Shown one piece after another: positions 10,038 through 16,867 of a stretch of 64,000 nt of DNA (positions are counted from its first letter, which is position 1; each line of letters opens with the position of its first letter). The notes under the pieces were generated by a model. It was not told the origin of the DNA. It did no database searches and saw only the letters and a program-made list of their open reading frames with translations. Source of the DNA: Microbulbifer sp. MI-G (GTDB lineage Bacteria > Pseudomonadota > Gammaproteobacteria > Pseudomonadales > Cellvibrionaceae); NCBI RefSeq assembly GCF_030440425.1, contig NZ_CP098023.1, positions 3,992,001 to 4,056,000 of the forward strand, read 5' to 3'. A program made the position numbers and the translations under genes.

Positions 10038-10197
10038 ATAAATTCTAAAAAATAAATATTGTTATAACTATTTTTTGCACAATTCATGGCCTACAGGGAC
10101 TTTGCTGCATTTCATAATGACAGTAGCAAGCAAATTATATCAATAGAAGTCTACTATTTATCCAGAAACAGCTTAAGTGAACCCTAATAGTGACTTA

Positions 10198-10214
10198 GGG
10201 CCTGTTCACACTAA
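10198..10214 (+). repeat. IS left terminal inverted repeat
   Basis: GGGCCTGTTCACACTAA, the exact reverse complement of 10989-11005. Confidence 0.93.
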
Positions 10215-10232
10215 ATCCTGTATAATCCCTTC

Positions 10233-11008
10233 ATGGAAATTACAGCGCAACAATACAAAATTATCGAAGATTTTCTGCCCCTCCAGCGCGGCAACGTGAA
10301 AATATCCAACTTACAAGTGCTGAACGCCATTCTTTACATAGCCGAGCATGGTTGTAAATGGCGAGGTCTGCCGATGAAATTCGGCCGTTGGCACAGCGTC
10401 TACATGCGGGCGAATCGTTGGGCCAAACAAGGTGTACTGGATAGGGTCTTTCTGGCCCTCCAGGAAAATAATGTGATCAATATCCAGGTCGATCATATCT
10501 CTCTTGATTCTACGGCTGTTAAAGTTCATCCAGATGGTACTGGCGCGTTAAAAAAAACGGTCCTCAATCTATCGGCAAATCACGAGCAGGATGGACCACC
10601 AAGATTCATATGGTTGCAGCCGACCACAACCGCGCCGTAGTATTTTCTCTGTCACCGGGGCAGGCTGGAGACGCTCCGGAGGGCCGAAAGCTGCTGAAAA
10701 GCCTTGAGAACTGCGGTTGGGATGGTGCCAAAGTGATCATGGACAAGGCCTACGAGGGTAATGAAACCCGGCAGTTGGTATTCGATCTGGGCATGGAACC
10801 TGTCGTGCCACCGAAGAGTAACCGAATGAGCACCTGGAAATACGACGTGGAGGCGTACAAAAAACGAAATGAAGTGGAGAGGCTGTTTCGACGCCTGAAG
10901 GGCTTCAGAAGAATTTTCTCTCGTTTTGACAAACTGGATGTCGTTTTCACATTTTTTATTCACTTTGCGCTTATTGCCGATACTTTAATTAGTGTGAACA
11001 GGCCCTAA
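10233..11008 (+). CDS. IS5-family DDE transposase (programmed -1 frameshift)
   Basis: The first frame (10233-10640) holds the DUF4096-like N-terminal domain and the first catalytic Asp (ISLDSTAVKVHPDG). The second frame (ending at 11008) holds MVAADHNRAVVFSLSPGQ, the second Asp (VIMDKAYEG) and the Glu region (RNEVERLFRRLKGFRR). A -1 slip on the A8 run at 10550-10557 joins them into the usual family sequence NGPQSIGKSRAGWTTKIH. Programmed slippage on A-runs is known for this group, so the split is read as normal rather than as decay. The stop TAA at 11006-11008 lies outside the right inverted repeat and is supplied by the target DNA. Confidence 0.92.
10989..11005 (-). repeat. IS right terminal inverted repeat
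   Basis: TTAGTGTGAACAGGCCC on the plus strand, pairing perfectly with 10198-10214. The transposase reading frame runs through it. Confidence 0.93.
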
Positions 11009-11663: not shown

Positions 11664-11936
11664 CTAACTGCCTAAAAGCATCAGAGGCAGTGCAAAAATG
11701 AAAAGGCTGATATATTTTGGAAAACGGAATGAAAGATAAAAAATACCACAGCTTAAAATAAAGCTAGCAATTATGCTCAATACCTTATGGTAAGAAAAAT
11801 CTGCCAGCAAAAAAATAAAAACATAATAGGATGAAAAGCCACATATAATGAAAGAGAATGATGCTATAAATAACTTTTCCGAAAAAGCGAACTCTGAATT
11901 CTTTTTTAAAAACTTCCCCACTTTATTTATCCTCAT
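11664..11936 (-). CDS. Small membrane protein, candidate microcin immunity protein
   Basis: A 90-residue protein with a basic N-terminus (MRINKVGKFLKK) and about three hydrophobic spans: roughly residues 20-42, 48-66 and 70-88. No family is recognised. It is the last gene of the export operon, 78 bases after the double-glycine peptide gene on the same strand. That is the place where immunity genes of class II microcins and bacteriocins usually lie, and most of them are small membrane proteins. The role is inferred from position and topology only. ATG at 11936 has a poor ribosome site. An in-frame GTG at 11921 has GAGG nine bases upstream and may be the true start (85 residues). Very AT-rich. 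Confidence 0.6.
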   Translation of the reverse strand: MRINKVGKFLKKNSEFAFSEKLFIASFSFIICGFSSYYVFIFLLADFSYHKVLSIIASFILSCGIFYLSFRFPKYISLFIFALPLMLLGS

Positions 11937-11942
11937 TGCAAA

Positions 11943-11975
11943 AAGCCACTCACAAGGTAATTTTGTAAGTGGCTT
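11943..11975 (-). terminator. Attenuator-like hairpin between microcin and immunity genes
   Basis: A 13-base imperfect stem (11943-11955 with 11963-11975, one mismatch) and a seven-base loop, followed on the minus strand by five T. It ends a few bases before the ATG of the downstream gene. It could partly terminate transcription so that the peptide mRNA exceeds the immunity mRNA. Confidence 0.6.
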
Positions 11976-12014
11976 GATAGAGAGCTCCTAATTTAGAGGA
12001 GCCTGAAACAATTC

Positions 12015-12137
12015 TTAATATGCTTTTGGTGAGAATCGGATCATAATTATTCCTACAGCAACCCTAATCCCAATTCCTACTAGAGGGGCCAATCCACCAT
12101 TCACTTGCTCAACTTCATTCATAGTAAGTTCTTTCAT
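12015..12137 (-). CDS. Double-glycine leader microcin/bacteriocin precursor (40 residues)
   Basis: Short gene, well supported by its features. The leader MKELTMNEVEQVNGG has the hallmark pattern of leaders cut by C39 peptidases: hydrophobic residues at -4, -7, -12 style spacing, acidic residues, and Gly-Gly at -2/-1. The predicted core is 25 residues starting LAPLVGIGIRV. It has GxG motifs, a hydrophobic helix-like centre (VGIIMI) and two Arg plus one Lys, with no Cys and no acidic residue. A small, cationic, membrane-active peptide fits. The ribosome site is good (GAGG, 7 bases before ATG). It starts 23 bases after the stop of the C39-domain ABC transporter and precedes a candidate immunity gene. 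The sequence does not match any microcin I can name. Activity is inferred. Confidence 0.85.
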   Translation of the reverse strand: MKELTMNEVEQVNGGLAPLVGIGIRVAVGIIMIRFSPKAY

Positions 12138-12160
12138 TTTATTTTCCTCTAAATTAAAGG

Positions 12161-14299
12161 TTATGCCAACTCATTGTCAGCTAGATTTATCTGCCTCCCT
12201 GTAGATTTAACCGTTTCCGGCCGATGTGCAACCAGCACCCGGGTAATAGCAAGCTGCTGAATATGCTGGTTAACCAGCGATTCATTCGCCACATCCAAAT
12301 GACTGGTTGCTTCGTCCATGAACAGGATGCGAGGTGCGCGATACAAGGCGCGCGCCAGCACAATTCTTTGCTTTTGTCCGCCGCTAAGGCTGGTGCCCAT
12401 ATCACCAACCAGCGTGTTGTATTGCATAGGCATATGCATGATTTCTTCGTGGATACACGCCAACTGCGCACAGTGAGCTATACGCTGGAGGTCCACCTGA
12501 GGCTCAAAGCAGGCGATATTGTCGCCAATAGTTCCGGCGAGCAACTGATCGTCCTGCATAACACCGGCAATCTGGCCGCGATAATTTGGCAGTTGCCTCA
12601 GGGGTTGGCCATCTATCAGGATTTCCCCTTCGGTCGGTTCCAGCAAACCCATCAGACATTTAAGCAATGTAGTTTTGCCACAGCCGCTGGGACCGACAAT
12701 GGCAACAGTTTCACCAGATTCAATGGTAAAGTTGACATTCTGAAATGCCGGGGCCTCCGCCTCACCAAATTGAAAACTGAGGTTGCGCACTTCTATTTTT
12801 CCCTGCAGGGCATGTGCTAGACCATCACCCATTGAAAGGCTATTTGGCCCATCTATATCCTCGGATTTGGTAAATACAATATCGGACAGGCGGTCCAGGT
12901 GCAGACCCAGCATTTTCAACTCGATCCACTGAGCAACCAGTGCGTCCATAGATTGAACGAAGCGGGTCTTATAACTCATAAAGGCATAGAGCATGCCGAC
13001 AGTGAGGATATTTCCCATCACTGCACTCGCAGCAAAATAAATTACCAACAGGTTTTCCAGACCGAACAACAGGCGGTTGATGGTGTTGTAGCCGATATTC
13101 CAGCGGGCAATACGGATATCCTTGTTGATGGCATCGGCGAGGCGATTGTGCCACTGGCCCTGGCGGTCGTTCTCGCGCTGGAACAGTTTGACGGTCTGGA
13201 TAGCCCGCACCGATTCCATAAAGTGCGAGTCGTGTTTTGCCTGGGCAACAATTTGCTCTTCAGTAAGTAGCCGCAGTGGGCGATAGAGCAACAGGCGAAG
13301 GGCAGCGTAAAGGACGACCACCAACAAGACAATCAGGGTCAGCCACAGGTCGTAAAAAAACATGGCGGCCAGTGTGATCAACGCCATAATACCGTCCACG
13401 ACCGCAGCCACCAGCCCGGTGGTGAGCAACTCGCGCACCTTTTGCAAGGAACCGAAGCGGGATACCACATCACCCATATGCCGGGTGGAGAAATAGCTCA
13501 TTGGCAGGCGGATCAGGTGGCGGAACAGGTTTGCAGCCATCTGCATATTGAGCCGACTGGAGATATGCAGGATTACCCATTCCCGCAAGGCGTTGGTGCC
13601 GGTTTGTATTATCAGTAACAGGCCAAAGCCGATCGCTAGCACCAGTAGCAGGTTGGCGTCGCCACGCAGGATGACGTCATCCACCACCGTTTGCATATAA
13701 AATGGCGTAACCACGGCAAACAGCTGAAGCAGCAGAGACAGCAGCAACACCTGAATCAAGCTGCGCTTTAACCCGCTGATACGCGACCAGAAATGGCTGA
13801 GTTTCAGTCGTTGGCGATCTTCTACCGATTGGAATTCATCCGTTGGTGTAAGCTCCAGGGCGACACCGGTAAAATGCTGGCCAAATTCCTCCCGGGTCAG
13901 CACCCGCTCCCCCACTGCGGGGTCGTGGATGGTGACTTTGTTTCGCTGTACGGATTTGAGCACCACAAAATGACTCATATCCCAGTGCAGCACACAGGGG
14001 CGCTGTAGCTCCTCCAGATGTTCCATCTCAAGGCGCAGGGCGCGACCAGCCAGGTGCAGGCGCCCGGCCATATCCATCAGGGTCTTGAGGTTGGTACCGT
14101 GGCTGGAGATATGGAAGCGGCGGCGCAGGCTGGCGAGGTCGGTATCATAGCCGTGAAACCCGGCAATCATCGCCAGACATACCAATCCGCATTCCGCAGC
14201 CTCAGTTTGTAAAATCACCGGCAGTTGGCGGCCTGGGGAAAAATGCAGAAGCTTTTCCGGTCGCTCTTGTTTGGCCGGCAGCTGTGTGGTCGCCTCCAT
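12161..14299 (-). CDS. Peptidase-containing ABC transporter (C39, bacteriocin export)
   Basis: Inner-membrane exporter that cleaves double-glycine leaders and moves the core peptide out, of the CvaB/PCAT type. From ATG at 14299 (712 residues) the order is as follows. The C39 peptidase comes first (residues 24-150), with Gln31, Cys37, His110 (HWDMSHFVVL) and Asp126 (HDPAVG). Then come the six-span transmembrane domain (about 175-450) and the nucleotide-binding domain, with Walker A GPSGCGKTT, signature LSGGQKQR and Walker B ILFMDEAT. The catalytic set is complete, so it should be active. The chosen ATG overlaps the TGA of the adaptor gene by one base; an upstream ATG at 14341 would overlap that gene by 43 bases. 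Confidence 0.95.
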   Translation of the reverse strand: MEATTQLPAKQERPEKLLHFSPGRQLPVILQTEAAECGLVCLAMIAGFHGYDTDLASLRRRFHISSHGTNLKTLMDMAGRLHLAGRALRLEMEHLEELQRPCVLHWDMSHFVVLKSVQRNKVTIHDPAVGERVLTREEFGQHFTGVALELTPTDEFQSVEDRQRLKLSHFWSRISGLKRSLIQVLLLSLLLQLFAVVTPFYMQTVVDDVILRGDANLLLVLAIGFGLLLIIQTGTNALREWVILHISSRLNMQMAANLFRHLIRLPMSYFSTRHMGDVVSRFGSLQKVRELLTTGLVAAVVDGIMALITLAAMFFYDLWLTLIVLLVVVLYAALRLLLYRPLRLLTEEQIVAQAKHDSHFMESVRAIQTVKLFQRENDRQGQWHNRLADAINKDIRIARWNIGYNTINRLLFGLENLLVIYFAASAVMGNILTVGMLYAFMSYKTRFVQSMDALVAQWIELKMLGLHLDRLSDIVFTKSEDIDGPNSLSMGDGLAHALQGKIEVRNLSFQFGEAEAPAFQNVNFTIESGETVAIVGPSGCGKTTLLKCLMGLLEPTEGEILIDGQPLRQLPNYRGQIAGVMQDDQLLAGTIGDNIACFEPQVDLQRIAHCAQLACIHEEIMHMPMQYNTLVGDMGTSLSGGQKQRIVLARALYRAPRILFMDEATSHLDVANESLVNQHIQQLAITRVLVAHRPETVKSTGRQINLADNELA

Positions 14300-15546
14300 C
14301 ACAGGCGTCCCCGCAAGCTGTAAATAGGCTCCAGCAGCCATTGCAGCAAACTCCGTTCCGCCAGTTGCACATCGGCGGATAGGGTCATGCCCGGCTTGAG
14401 GGAAAAGTGCCGGCCATAGGCATTAACCGTCGGTTGTGCCAATTTTGCCGTAACCCTGAACACCGGCTCGCGTACTGCAACAGGAACACGCAGCAGCTCA
14501 TCGGGCAGCAACACAGTATCAGACACCTCCAACACGGCACCGGGGTAAAGGCCGAATTTCTGATAGGGGAAAGCATCGTAGCGAATCTTCAAGGGCTGGC
14601 CTGTAGTGAGAAAACCCGCAGAGCGCACGGGTACCAGCAGCTGGGCTGTAAGTACGTGATTCTCCGGCACCAGGGATAAAATCGGGATATCAGCTCGTGC
14701 CTGCTGGCCCTCAGTTGCCTGCAGGTTACTGATGACTCCATCTCGGGAAGCCTTGACAATATAGGCCCGCTGGCCATGCAGTTGGGCAATCTGCTGGGCA
14801 AGGTCGGAAAGGCGTGCGCGCAACTGATCACTGCTATTGGCAAACTCTTCGGGAAGCAGCAGGCGGTCACTTTCCAGTTGCCGAATTTGATTGCGCAGAT
14901 TCACCCCGCTGCGTGCAAGGCTCTGGCGGTCGGCCTGCAGCTCCAATTCCTGGGCTATAACCGCGTCCAGCTCTGCTGAGGAAATATGGCCATCTCGCTT
15001 GAGCCGTCGGTAGCGCTCTGCCTGTTCCGCGATTAAGATATAGCGTTGCGTTTGTGTTTCTATCTGCTTTTCCAACAGGGCCAGGTCTTCCTCACCGGCA
15101 ACAATACGCTGGTCAAGATCACGCAGTTGCTGATGATAAATTTTCTCACTGCGCTTCAACTGTTCGGAGACTAATTGTTGTTGGCTTTTGTACTCAGTCA
15201 ACAGCAAAGACTCGAGGTGTTTACCATCTGCCAAAATTCGGTCACCGTTGACCACGATCAGGGGCTGATCCTTTATTACCCGATCACCCTCGCGCACCAG
15301 CACCTGTTTGATAATGCCCGAACGCTCAGCATAAACCCGCACCACACCTGAAGCCGGCTCCAGCCAACCGGTAACGCTTTCCCTGCGGGCATAGTGGCTG
15401 CCGGCAAGCCAGATAATAACGGCAACCACCCAGGCTAAAAGCAATGACAAAATGAGAGTATGTGACAGGCGGGGCAGTAGCAGAATCTCACCGTGCAGAC
15501 GGTCTGCTTGTTTTTCCATGGCCTGACGGCGGAACAACCCTGTCAC
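14299..15546 (-). CDS. HlyD-family membrane fusion protein (microcin export adaptor)
   Basis: Periplasmic adaptor that links the ABC exporter to an outer-membrane channel such as TolC, of CvaA type. A short cytoplasmic N-terminus is followed by one membrane span (LILSLLLAWVVAVIIWLAG, about residues 31-49). Then come a lipoyl half-domain (about 60-100), a long alpha-helical coiled-coil hairpin (about 105-250), the second lipoyl half with DGVISNLQATEGQ, and beta-barrel domains to residue 415. It is the first gene of the operon and overlaps the transporter start by one base. No outer-membrane factor is encoded nearby, so it presumably uses the housekeeping TolC. Confidence 0.93.
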   Translation of the reverse strand: MTGLFRRQAMEKQADRLHGEILLLPRLSHTLILSLLLAWVVAVIIWLAGSHYARRESVTGWLEPASGVVRVYAERSGIIKQVLVREGDRVIKDQPLIVVNGDRILADGKHLESLLLTEYKSQQQLVSEQLKRSEKIYHQQLRDLDQRIVAGEEDLALLEKQIETQTQRYILIAEQAERYRRLKRDGHISSAELDAVIAQELELQADRQSLARSGVNLRNQIRQLESDRLLLPEEFANSSDQLRARLSDLAQQIAQLHGQRAYIVKASRDGVISNLQATEGQQARADIPILSLVPENHVLTAQLLVPVRSAGFLTTGQPLKIRYDAFPYQKFGLYPGAVLEVSDTVLLPDELLRVPVAVREPVFRVTAKLAQPTVNAYGRHFSLKPGMTLSADVQLAERSLLQWLLEPIYSLRGRL

Positions 15547-16230: not shown

Positions 16231-16599
16231 CTAAAAACCGGTTTCGTAATGCATACTGGCCTCCACATACTCGATAGTGCCATCGTCGTAGTGGATATAG
16301 GCTTCCGCCAGGTTCGGTGCATAGGCATGCACAGTCACATTACATGACAATCCTGAATTACAGCCTTTTATCCAGTTGATTCGATCAATCGACTTGGTAA
16401 TGTTGGTAATTGCCCAGCTTCCCGAAGTGGAATTGCCAAAACTGAAATCTATTCCTTCACAATGGGAAGTCCCATTACCAAAGACATTCCCGCCTGGTTG
16501 CACATTGAGTGTGCATACAAGATCCGCAGAGAGCGCGGGAAGTACTGTCAATGAACCAATTATAACCAATGATGCTAATAGCAATTTTTTAGTAAACAT
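16231..16599 (-). CDS. Small secreted cysteine-containing protein, unknown
   Basis: From ATG at 16599 it encodes 122 residues. The N-terminus (MFTKKLLLASLVIIGSL) is a Sec signal peptide that probably ends at ALSA (about residue 25). The mature part of about 97 residues is rich in Ser, Asn, Gly and Thr and holds four Cys (in LVCTL, SHCEG, KGCNS and LSCNV). Two disulfides could form in the periplasm or outside. No family is recognised. A longer start at 16668 adds 23 residues without signal character and was not chosen; AGGA lies just before the chosen ATG. It stands alone, minus strand, upstream of the microcin operon. A toxin, inhibitor or adhesin role is possible but unsupported. Confidence 0.7.
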   Translation of the reverse strand: MFTKKLLLASLVIIGSLTVLPALSADLVCTLNVQPGGNVFGNGTSHCEGIDFSFGNSTSGSWAITNITKSIDRINWIKGCNSGLSCNVTVHAYAPNLAEAYIHYDDGTIEYVEASMHYETGF

Positions 16600-16867
16600 T
16601 TTCCTAACCTTATTATTTCCAATCCGTTGATATCGCCATACAATTGACGACAATTGCGAGCTTATCACTGGCGTAATCTATTTCCCACCTGTTAAAAAAC
16701 CCGAGCACAGTAAAATGTGGTCGGGTTAACAAAAAATCCGTTTTTAGAAATCAGGTGTTTGACCTAGTCAAGCCACCAGGATACCTGTCAATCACTCAAT
16801 TCCTCCAGCACCAATCATTACGATCACTCTGCAGTTTTTTCTCAATTAAAAATGATCGCTACCGTCC

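Follow-up and report, generated by a model that had tools for sequence, protein, structure and literature searches.

Why does a short peptide gene, whose exporter and leader are recognisably conserved, carry a mature part that is almost without relatives? The question is raised by a locus on the minus strand (11664-15546) of a 64,000-nucleotide stretch of the Microbulbifer sp. MI-G chromosome, hereafter the window (G000:C1:3992001-4056000, G000 being the host genome, in two contigs). The locus holds genes for an HlyD adaptor, a C39 peptidase-containing ATP-binding cassette (ABC) exporter, a 40-residue double-glycine (GG) peptide and a 90-residue membrane protein, and all four frames reported in an earlier note on this DNA were confirmed at their places. 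We found that the exporter, the leader of the peptide and a block upstream of hlyD form a constant platform, while the peptide core and the DNA downstream of it are entirely different between most paralogs, and likewise between most of the species that carry the operon at one shared site. The notable part of the locus is this exchange architecture around the peptide and not the type of the peptide, which is already recognised.

Firstly, we compared the window locus with its paralogs. Besides the copy in the window, the host genome has an exporter-like copy at 595 kb, a broken one at 908 kb and a truncated one at 2539 kb, and it encodes four leader-type peptides. In the exporter tail, the window shows 91% DNA identity with the 2539-kb copy and 84% with the 908-kb copy, and the leader DNA matches them at 39/45 and 35/45 bases; past the Gly-Gly codon, no local similarity was detected in 300 bases between the window and either copy. 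The conserved block made of the exporter 3' end and the leader has four matches in its own genome (itself included) and matches in 12 of 48 Microbulbifer genomes; for the block upstream, which reaches into hlyD, the figures are five and six of 48 (E<=1e-8 for both). When ten loci were compared, local similarity downstream was seen in 2 of 45 pairs, namely between the window and its counterpart L033 in an uncultured Microbulbifer sp. (G006), and between L030 and L035. The 21 cores compared, plus that of M. halophilus (G016), fall into nine groups without detectable similarity (single-linkage, E<=0.01), and every core inspected lies behind an exporter or a remnant of one except L030:9827-10045, which is about 3 kb off. 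The pair L030 (G000:C1:908-911 kb) and L035 (G006:C106) shares 98% of the exporter tail, 45/45 leader bases and 98% of the first 121 bases of core DNA, after which the peptide sequences diverge; this likeness, above the 89-91% of the colinear window locus, hints at recent transfer.

Secondly, we asked where the operon sits in other species. Exporters of this subfamily occur in 13/48 Microbulbifer genomes (C39 domain, E<=1e-25) and leader-type peptides in 11/48 (profile A1, E<=0.05), six of these 11 having supplied rows of the profile and hence matching by construction. Exporter flanks were compared in 12 of the 13 genomes, G011, with the most distant exporters, being left out. The same site was found in six of the 12: the operon is flanked by apaH-ksgA-pdxA at its peptide end and by galE at its hlyD end; capA also lies at the hlyD end in M. 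flavimaris (G012), Microbulbifer sp. YPW16 (G019) and M. hainanensis (G035), and in M. yueqingensis (G031) the stretch examined showed capA and no galE. At this site the exporters of the six species are 79-87% identical and their ApaH proteins 78-94%, and the best alignment of the peptide cores, with one or two chosen cores per species, gave z <3 in 14 of the 15 species pairs. Beside the exporter loci tested in six genomes (G000, G006, G015, G027, G062 and M. variabilis, G030), pdxA, ksgA, apaH, capA and galE were not found, and apaH lies elsewhere in these genomes. Whether the window locus occupies this apaH/galE site was also considered, and such a placement could not be shown: apaH of the host genome is about 26 kb away, together with pdxA and ksgA and with no exporter, and neither capA nor galE was found in the window or in the further stretch examined.

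These patterns lead us to propose, tentatively and with a little less than an even chance of being right, a polymorphic bacteriocin platform in Microbulbifer. The HlyD-C39 exporter and the leader would form a fixed dock at which modules of leader, core and immunity gene are swapped at the Gly-Gly codon, often with a scrap of exporter DNA serving as homology arm, in the manner of the toxin tips of contact-dependent inhibition (CDI) and Rhs systems; gene conversion would keep exporter copies identical, and one transporter would serve unmodified peptides as well as a microviridin-type graspetide. The word swap describes end states here, and slow replacement by duplication and loss could also give a turnover of cargo. 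GG peptides were found behind truncated or internally deleted exporters at L031, L033, L034, L035, L038 (the second) and L063 (the second), and none was found behind the exporter remnant of L066; L058 is cut by a contig end. We considered whether in-frame internal deletions of the exporter reveal that translation into the peptide is maintained. The deletion junctions share one frame in L031, L033, L034 and L035; this reading was rejected because the junction of L066 is off-frame, L031 carries a later frameshift and L034 contains stops, so that the pattern is inconsistent.

Further observations concern the same pieces. A breakpoint recurs at about 15355-15374 (HlyD residues ~58-67), near which L029:13-213, L031, L033 and L066 stop or branch and near which the contig ends of G006 C63 and C65 also lie; the junction in L033 falls where the two genes have a short similar stretch (LEP), and the fragment L068 stops earlier, near residue 53. 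In a Cellvibrio metagenome-assembled genome (L046:2287-3414), three GG peptides stand in a row behind a 75%-identical exporter; their leaders are almost alike and their cores differ. Leader-type matches were also seen away from the exporter loci examined, at G019:C1:2364185, G012:C2:129178, G027:C26:1077246 and G031:C11:633681, and are possibly orphan peptides without an exporter.

Taken by itself, the peptide that the platform carries in the window is unremarkable: it adds one double-glycine peptide to an annotation family that is already recognised. Its leader, MKELTMNEVEQVNGG, has 15 residues and ends in NGG, and its core, LAPLVGIGIRVAVGIIMIRFSPKAY, has 25 residues, a calculated average mass of 2655.3 Da and a charge of about +2.8. 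In the window the leader motif occurs a single time; none of 100 first-order Markov windows has it. The peptide scores 29.8 bits against NCBIfam TIGR03949 (E 3.9e-7; cut-off 21.5) and 15.5 bits against Pfam Bacteriocin_IIc (PF10439), whose gathering score of 27.1 is not reached. It is chiefly the leader that seems to earn the TIGR03949 name, because, of the two other peptides of the group scanned, L034 passes the same cut-off (21.7) and L031 fails it (20.8). In a search of about 5.8 billion proteins, the sole relative at E<=0.01 besides the peptide itself is an 83%-identical one in G006, which NCBI names 'class IIb bacteriocin, lactobin A/cerein 7B family'. Hence the gene cannot be called overlooked, as it had been in the earlier note, since TIGR03949 catches it and its relative is already named as a member of that family; the same search bears out the further statement that the core matches no named microcin. 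The note had also made conservation beside homologous exporters a test of its claim, and here the leader proved conserved and the core was conserved in one sister genome only. Class IIb bacteriocins are defined by two complementary peptides, and a GxxxG helix motif is typical of them. A second, complementary peptide was not found, one leader motif being present in the window and one GG open reading frame (ORF) being listed within 1.5 kb behind the exporter, and GxxxG is absent from the core.

We consider it rather probable, judging from sequence, that the product of the locus is a bacteriocin-like peptide, processed by C39 and secreted, that a candidate immunity protein accompanies it, and that the operon is of the microcin V or class II bacteriocin style. 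By what is known of the family, the C39 domain would cut the 15-residue leader after Gly-Gly; the exporter, together with HlyD and a TolC encoded elsewhere on the chromosome, would release the 25-residue cationic, hydrophobic peptide, which most likely acts on the membranes of close relatives, and the small membrane protein encoded downstream most likely protects the producer. Several lines of evidence support this. The exporter has Peptidase_C39 (E 8.6e-37), ABC_membrane and ABC_tran domains (Pfam), and its C39 motifs are intact: Q45, C51, H124 and D140, which we take to be catalytic residues, are present, as are Walker A, Walker B and the ABC signature. The leader is recognised by TIGR03949, and a type I TolC is encoded in the host chromosome at G000:C1:3805400-3806746, over the family cut-off (TIGR01844, 307.5 bits against 225.15). 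The peptide frame, the hairpins behind it and the small protein are kept in a second species, where the small protein is under purifying selection; and a hypervariable core stands beside a conserved exporter, with DNA similarity among paralogs ending at the leader. The solved structures closest to the exporter in sequence are HlyB and an 'ABC-type bacteriocin transporter'. ComA is also among the matches, and C39 exporters export pheromones too; together with the shortness of the core, this would suit a peptide that is a secreted signal, pheromone-like in the way of ComC-type double-glycine peptides, and not antibacterial. Double-glycine pheromones normally adjoin a receptor kinase or regulator. 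None was among the neighbours scanned, to which the search for a receptor was confined; the adjoining gene under constraint encodes a small membrane protein; and for most species pairs the shared site holds wholly different cores, all of which makes a signal improbable.

The case for a bacteriocin-like peptide draws on the small protein, which, and not the peptide, is the unannotated gene of the locus. In G006 the counterpart locus L033 keeps the peptide, the hairpins and the small protein: the whole peptide frame is retained at 83% identity at the colinear place, and the DNA is still 89% identical to the window past the leader. The ratio of non-synonymous to synonymous change (dN/dS) of the small protein between the two genomes is 0.19, 17 of 30 changes falling at third codon positions (Fisher p 2.5e-5 for synonymous versus non-synonymous changes). 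Between the peptide and this gene lies an 82-base stretch with two hairpins (-28.2 kcal/mol, z -4.75, 0/200 shuffles as good), which is also kept in G006 (z -4.34). Because a strong hairpin with a short U-run precedes the small-protein gene, the small protein is probably transcribed by read-through or from a promoter of its own, and the self-contained operon described earlier, though it stands for the presence and order of its four genes, is doubtful for the last of them; a simple terminator scan did not list the hairpin at 11940-11975, which counts against a terminator role. Judged by sequence only, a GTG at 11921 preceded by GAGG could plausibly serve as another start, which would give 85 residues. 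The same hairpin raises the rival view that the 90-residue protein is an independent gene and no immunity protein, as does the lack of a homologue outside two genomes: matches at E<=0.01 were found in 2/48 Microbulbifer genomes (G000 and G006), and the protein database gave two candidates, none at E<=0.1. The predicted fold is helical and of low confidence (mean predicted local distance difference test, pLDDT, 62.7; two-sequence alignment), and this model finds no structural match. Nevertheless, the small protein accompanies the core in both genomes that bear it and has no match in the other 46 of 48, and its size and hydrophobicity suit an immunity protein; we regard an independent gene as doubtful.

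We also examined a second membrane protein, Rce1-like (CAAX/CPBP), as a possible immunity protein shared by the platform. It lies beside the exporter in M. halophilus, Microbulbifer sp. YPW16, M. mangrovi (G026), G027 and M. yueqingensis, and occurs in 14/48 Microbulbifer genomes overall; no match was obtained at E<=1e-20 in G000 and G006. As a shared immunity protein it was rejected: it was not found near the exporters of M. flavimaris and M. hainanensis and is present in genomes that have no exporter; it is possibly an accessory or immunity factor. Rce1-like positions noted are L036:3837-4640, L040:8657-9478 and L038:4427-5215, several exporter loci and an HlyD fragment in G034 being its neighbours.

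Thirdly, we analysed the copy of the exporter at G000:C1:590-602 kb. Here, in L029:1073-7272, HlyD and exporter genes lie downstream of two ATP-grasp ligases and of a precursor of the microviridin/marinostatin type, which scores 39.8 bits against NF033738 (cut-off 26) and matches Pfam Inhibitor_I10. The ligases resemble MvdC and MvdD, with scores under the equivalog cut-offs. Over 15559-12203, a span of 3,357 bases, this copy and the one in the window agree at every base, the next difference being at 12202; both flanks diverge, the final dozen codons of the exporter are partly different, and an insertion element, 97% identical to the one in the window, abuts the exporter 3' end. Recent copying or gene conversion would be the simplest reading of the twin, because 3,357 identical bases stand between diverged flanks. 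The graspetide leader, ELTTEQTDQVVGG, is of the ELT...QV.GG type and resembles the peptide leaders, so that one exporter type serving the graspetide and the GG peptides is plausible.

The twin exporter also feeds a rival explanation, in which the exporter is kept for other clients, namely the graspetide precursor at L029 and the remaining GG peptides of the genome, while the peptide in the window drifts as a leftover. The identity of the exporter pair and the likeness of the leaders fit this rival. Of the 48 genomes searched for such graspetide ligases, G000 and G006 alone gave matches (E<=1e-30), and the 90-residue protein occurs in the same pair. Two of the points that weigh against a working bacteriocin-like system on an exchangeable platform are in its favour as well: the dN/dS of the peptide core against G006 is 0.71 (12 changes), for which neutrality was not rejected (p 0.72), and the G006 exporter at this place is reduced to a fused remnant, most of it lost (several G006 exporter pieces end at contig breaks). 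The remaining points against our reading are that M. flavimaris and M. halophilus form one shared-site pair with related cores (z 15.6); that the shared-site exporter of M. halophilus is interrupted by stops, the other five of the six being open (the one stop counted for G019 falls outside its 716-residue open frame); that the terminator-like hairpin separates the peptide from the candidate immunity gene; that the low-confidence model of the small protein had no match in the PDB at E<=10; and that the core, at 25 residues and 2.66 kDa, is smaller than the 5-10 kDa which PMC10233263 gives for mature class II microcins. As to the leftover, the frame, the leader and the hairpins are kept in both species, and the linked small protein is clearly under selection, which is hard to explain without the peptide; we judge it quite unlikely and retain the bacteriocin-like peptide as the preferred explanation.

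The coordinates are collected in the table. The HlyD adaptor also scores 4.1e-39 against TIGR01843, under the family cut-off. The transposase of the insertion element is split over two overlapping frames (10233-10640 and 10610-11008), and the colinear G006 sequence runs through its place, matching from 11007 onward and at 10165-10195 (31 bases only). The family scan of the neighbours showed an M16 peptidase, a transposase and a NAMPT-like enzyme, together with an ORF that matched no family. A 145-residue ORF at 16231-16668 (-) has, by eye, a signal-peptide-like stretch and matches neither Pfam nor NCBIfam at E<=1.

Table. Features of the double-glycine peptide locus and its surroundings, in window positions.
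Feature	Position	Strand	Size	Remarks
Upstream region and first ~60 hlyD codons	15360..15640	-		Recurs at further exporter loci
HlyD-family periplasmic adaptor (membrane fusion protein)	14299..15546	-	415 aa	GTG start; Pfam HlyD_3 5.1e-14
C39 peptidase-containing ABC exporter	12161..14341	-	726 aa	Overlaps hlyD end
Exporter 3' end and leader, conserved DNA block	12093..12420	-		Stops at leader Gly-Gly
Double-glycine precursor peptide	12015..12137	-	40 aa + stop	Leader 12093-12137, core 12018-12092
First hairpin behind peptide	11983..12003	-	7 bp	RNA fold; sequence kept in G006
Terminator-like hairpin	11940..11975	-	13 bp stem	Followed by five-U run (two U paired in fold)
Small hydrophobic membrane protein	11664..11936	-	90 aa	Unannotated; candidate immunity protein
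IS4/5-type insertion element	10196..11006	+		Downstream; Pfam DUF4096, DDE_Tnp_1

If the platform is real, a cultivable marine genus with one conserved export system and more than 20 peptide cores would offer a test bed for cores on one exporter, and the Gly-Gly boundary, together with an exporter shared with a graspetide cluster, would make the diversification of bacteriocins and the generality of C39 exporters testable questions. A search of the open-licence literature by title and abstract gave nothing on point for Microbulbifer with bacteriocin or double-glycine, graspetide or microcin, and no report was found there on conserved-leader cassettes or orphan bacteriocin modules.

Among known systems, the locus resembles the class II microcins, such as the microcin V system CvaC/Cvi/CvaB/CvaA/TolC (PMC10233263). 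By that source, these have leaders of 15-18 residues ending in GG or GA, use the chromosomal TolC, and are accompanied by immunity proteins that are small adjacent membrane proteins of 51-216 residues (median 82). The window locus shares with them a 15-residue double-glycine leader, a C39 ABC exporter, an HlyD-type adaptor, a chromosomal TolC and an adjacent small membrane protein, and, again by that source, the combination of conserved leaders with mature peptides of low mutual similarity. Unlike microcin V, it has a hairpin between the peptide and the candidate immunity gene, and its host is a Microbulbifer and not an enterobacterium. By this analogy the locus would work like a class II microcin, and it is not filed as one, its core being too small and the roles in killing and immunity being putative. 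With the lactobin A/cerein 7B family of TIGR03949, which is distinct from the siderophore-bearing class IIb microcins, it shares a score over the curated cut-off and the NCBI name of the G006 peptide; unlike that family's class IIb members, it has a single peptide found, no GxxxG and a PF10439 score under the gathering threshold, and since neither the second peptide nor the motif was found it is not filed as a class IIb two-peptide bacteriocin either.

Prochlorosins combine a conserved leader with many cores. The platform is like them in its conserved leader and hypervariable core, and unlike them in that no modifying enzyme was seen in the window operon. The exchange architecture itself resembles that of CDI/Rhs systems. 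It differs from them in that the constant component consists of a separate gene, the exporter, and of the leader of a tiny secreted peptide, with no contact-dependent delivery, and in that the Microbulbifer modules are mostly dispersed on the chromosome, tandem arrangements being seen only in L038 and L063. According to PMC4927057, orphan toxin-immunity modules of CDI/Rhs systems keep homology to the upstream gene, a possible switching arm. As in the systems described there, a constant delivery gene stands before exchangeable distal cargo at one site (14/15 pairs without core similarity), and the displaced modules of L031, L033, L034, L035, L038 and L063 likewise retain a stretch of the upstream gene.

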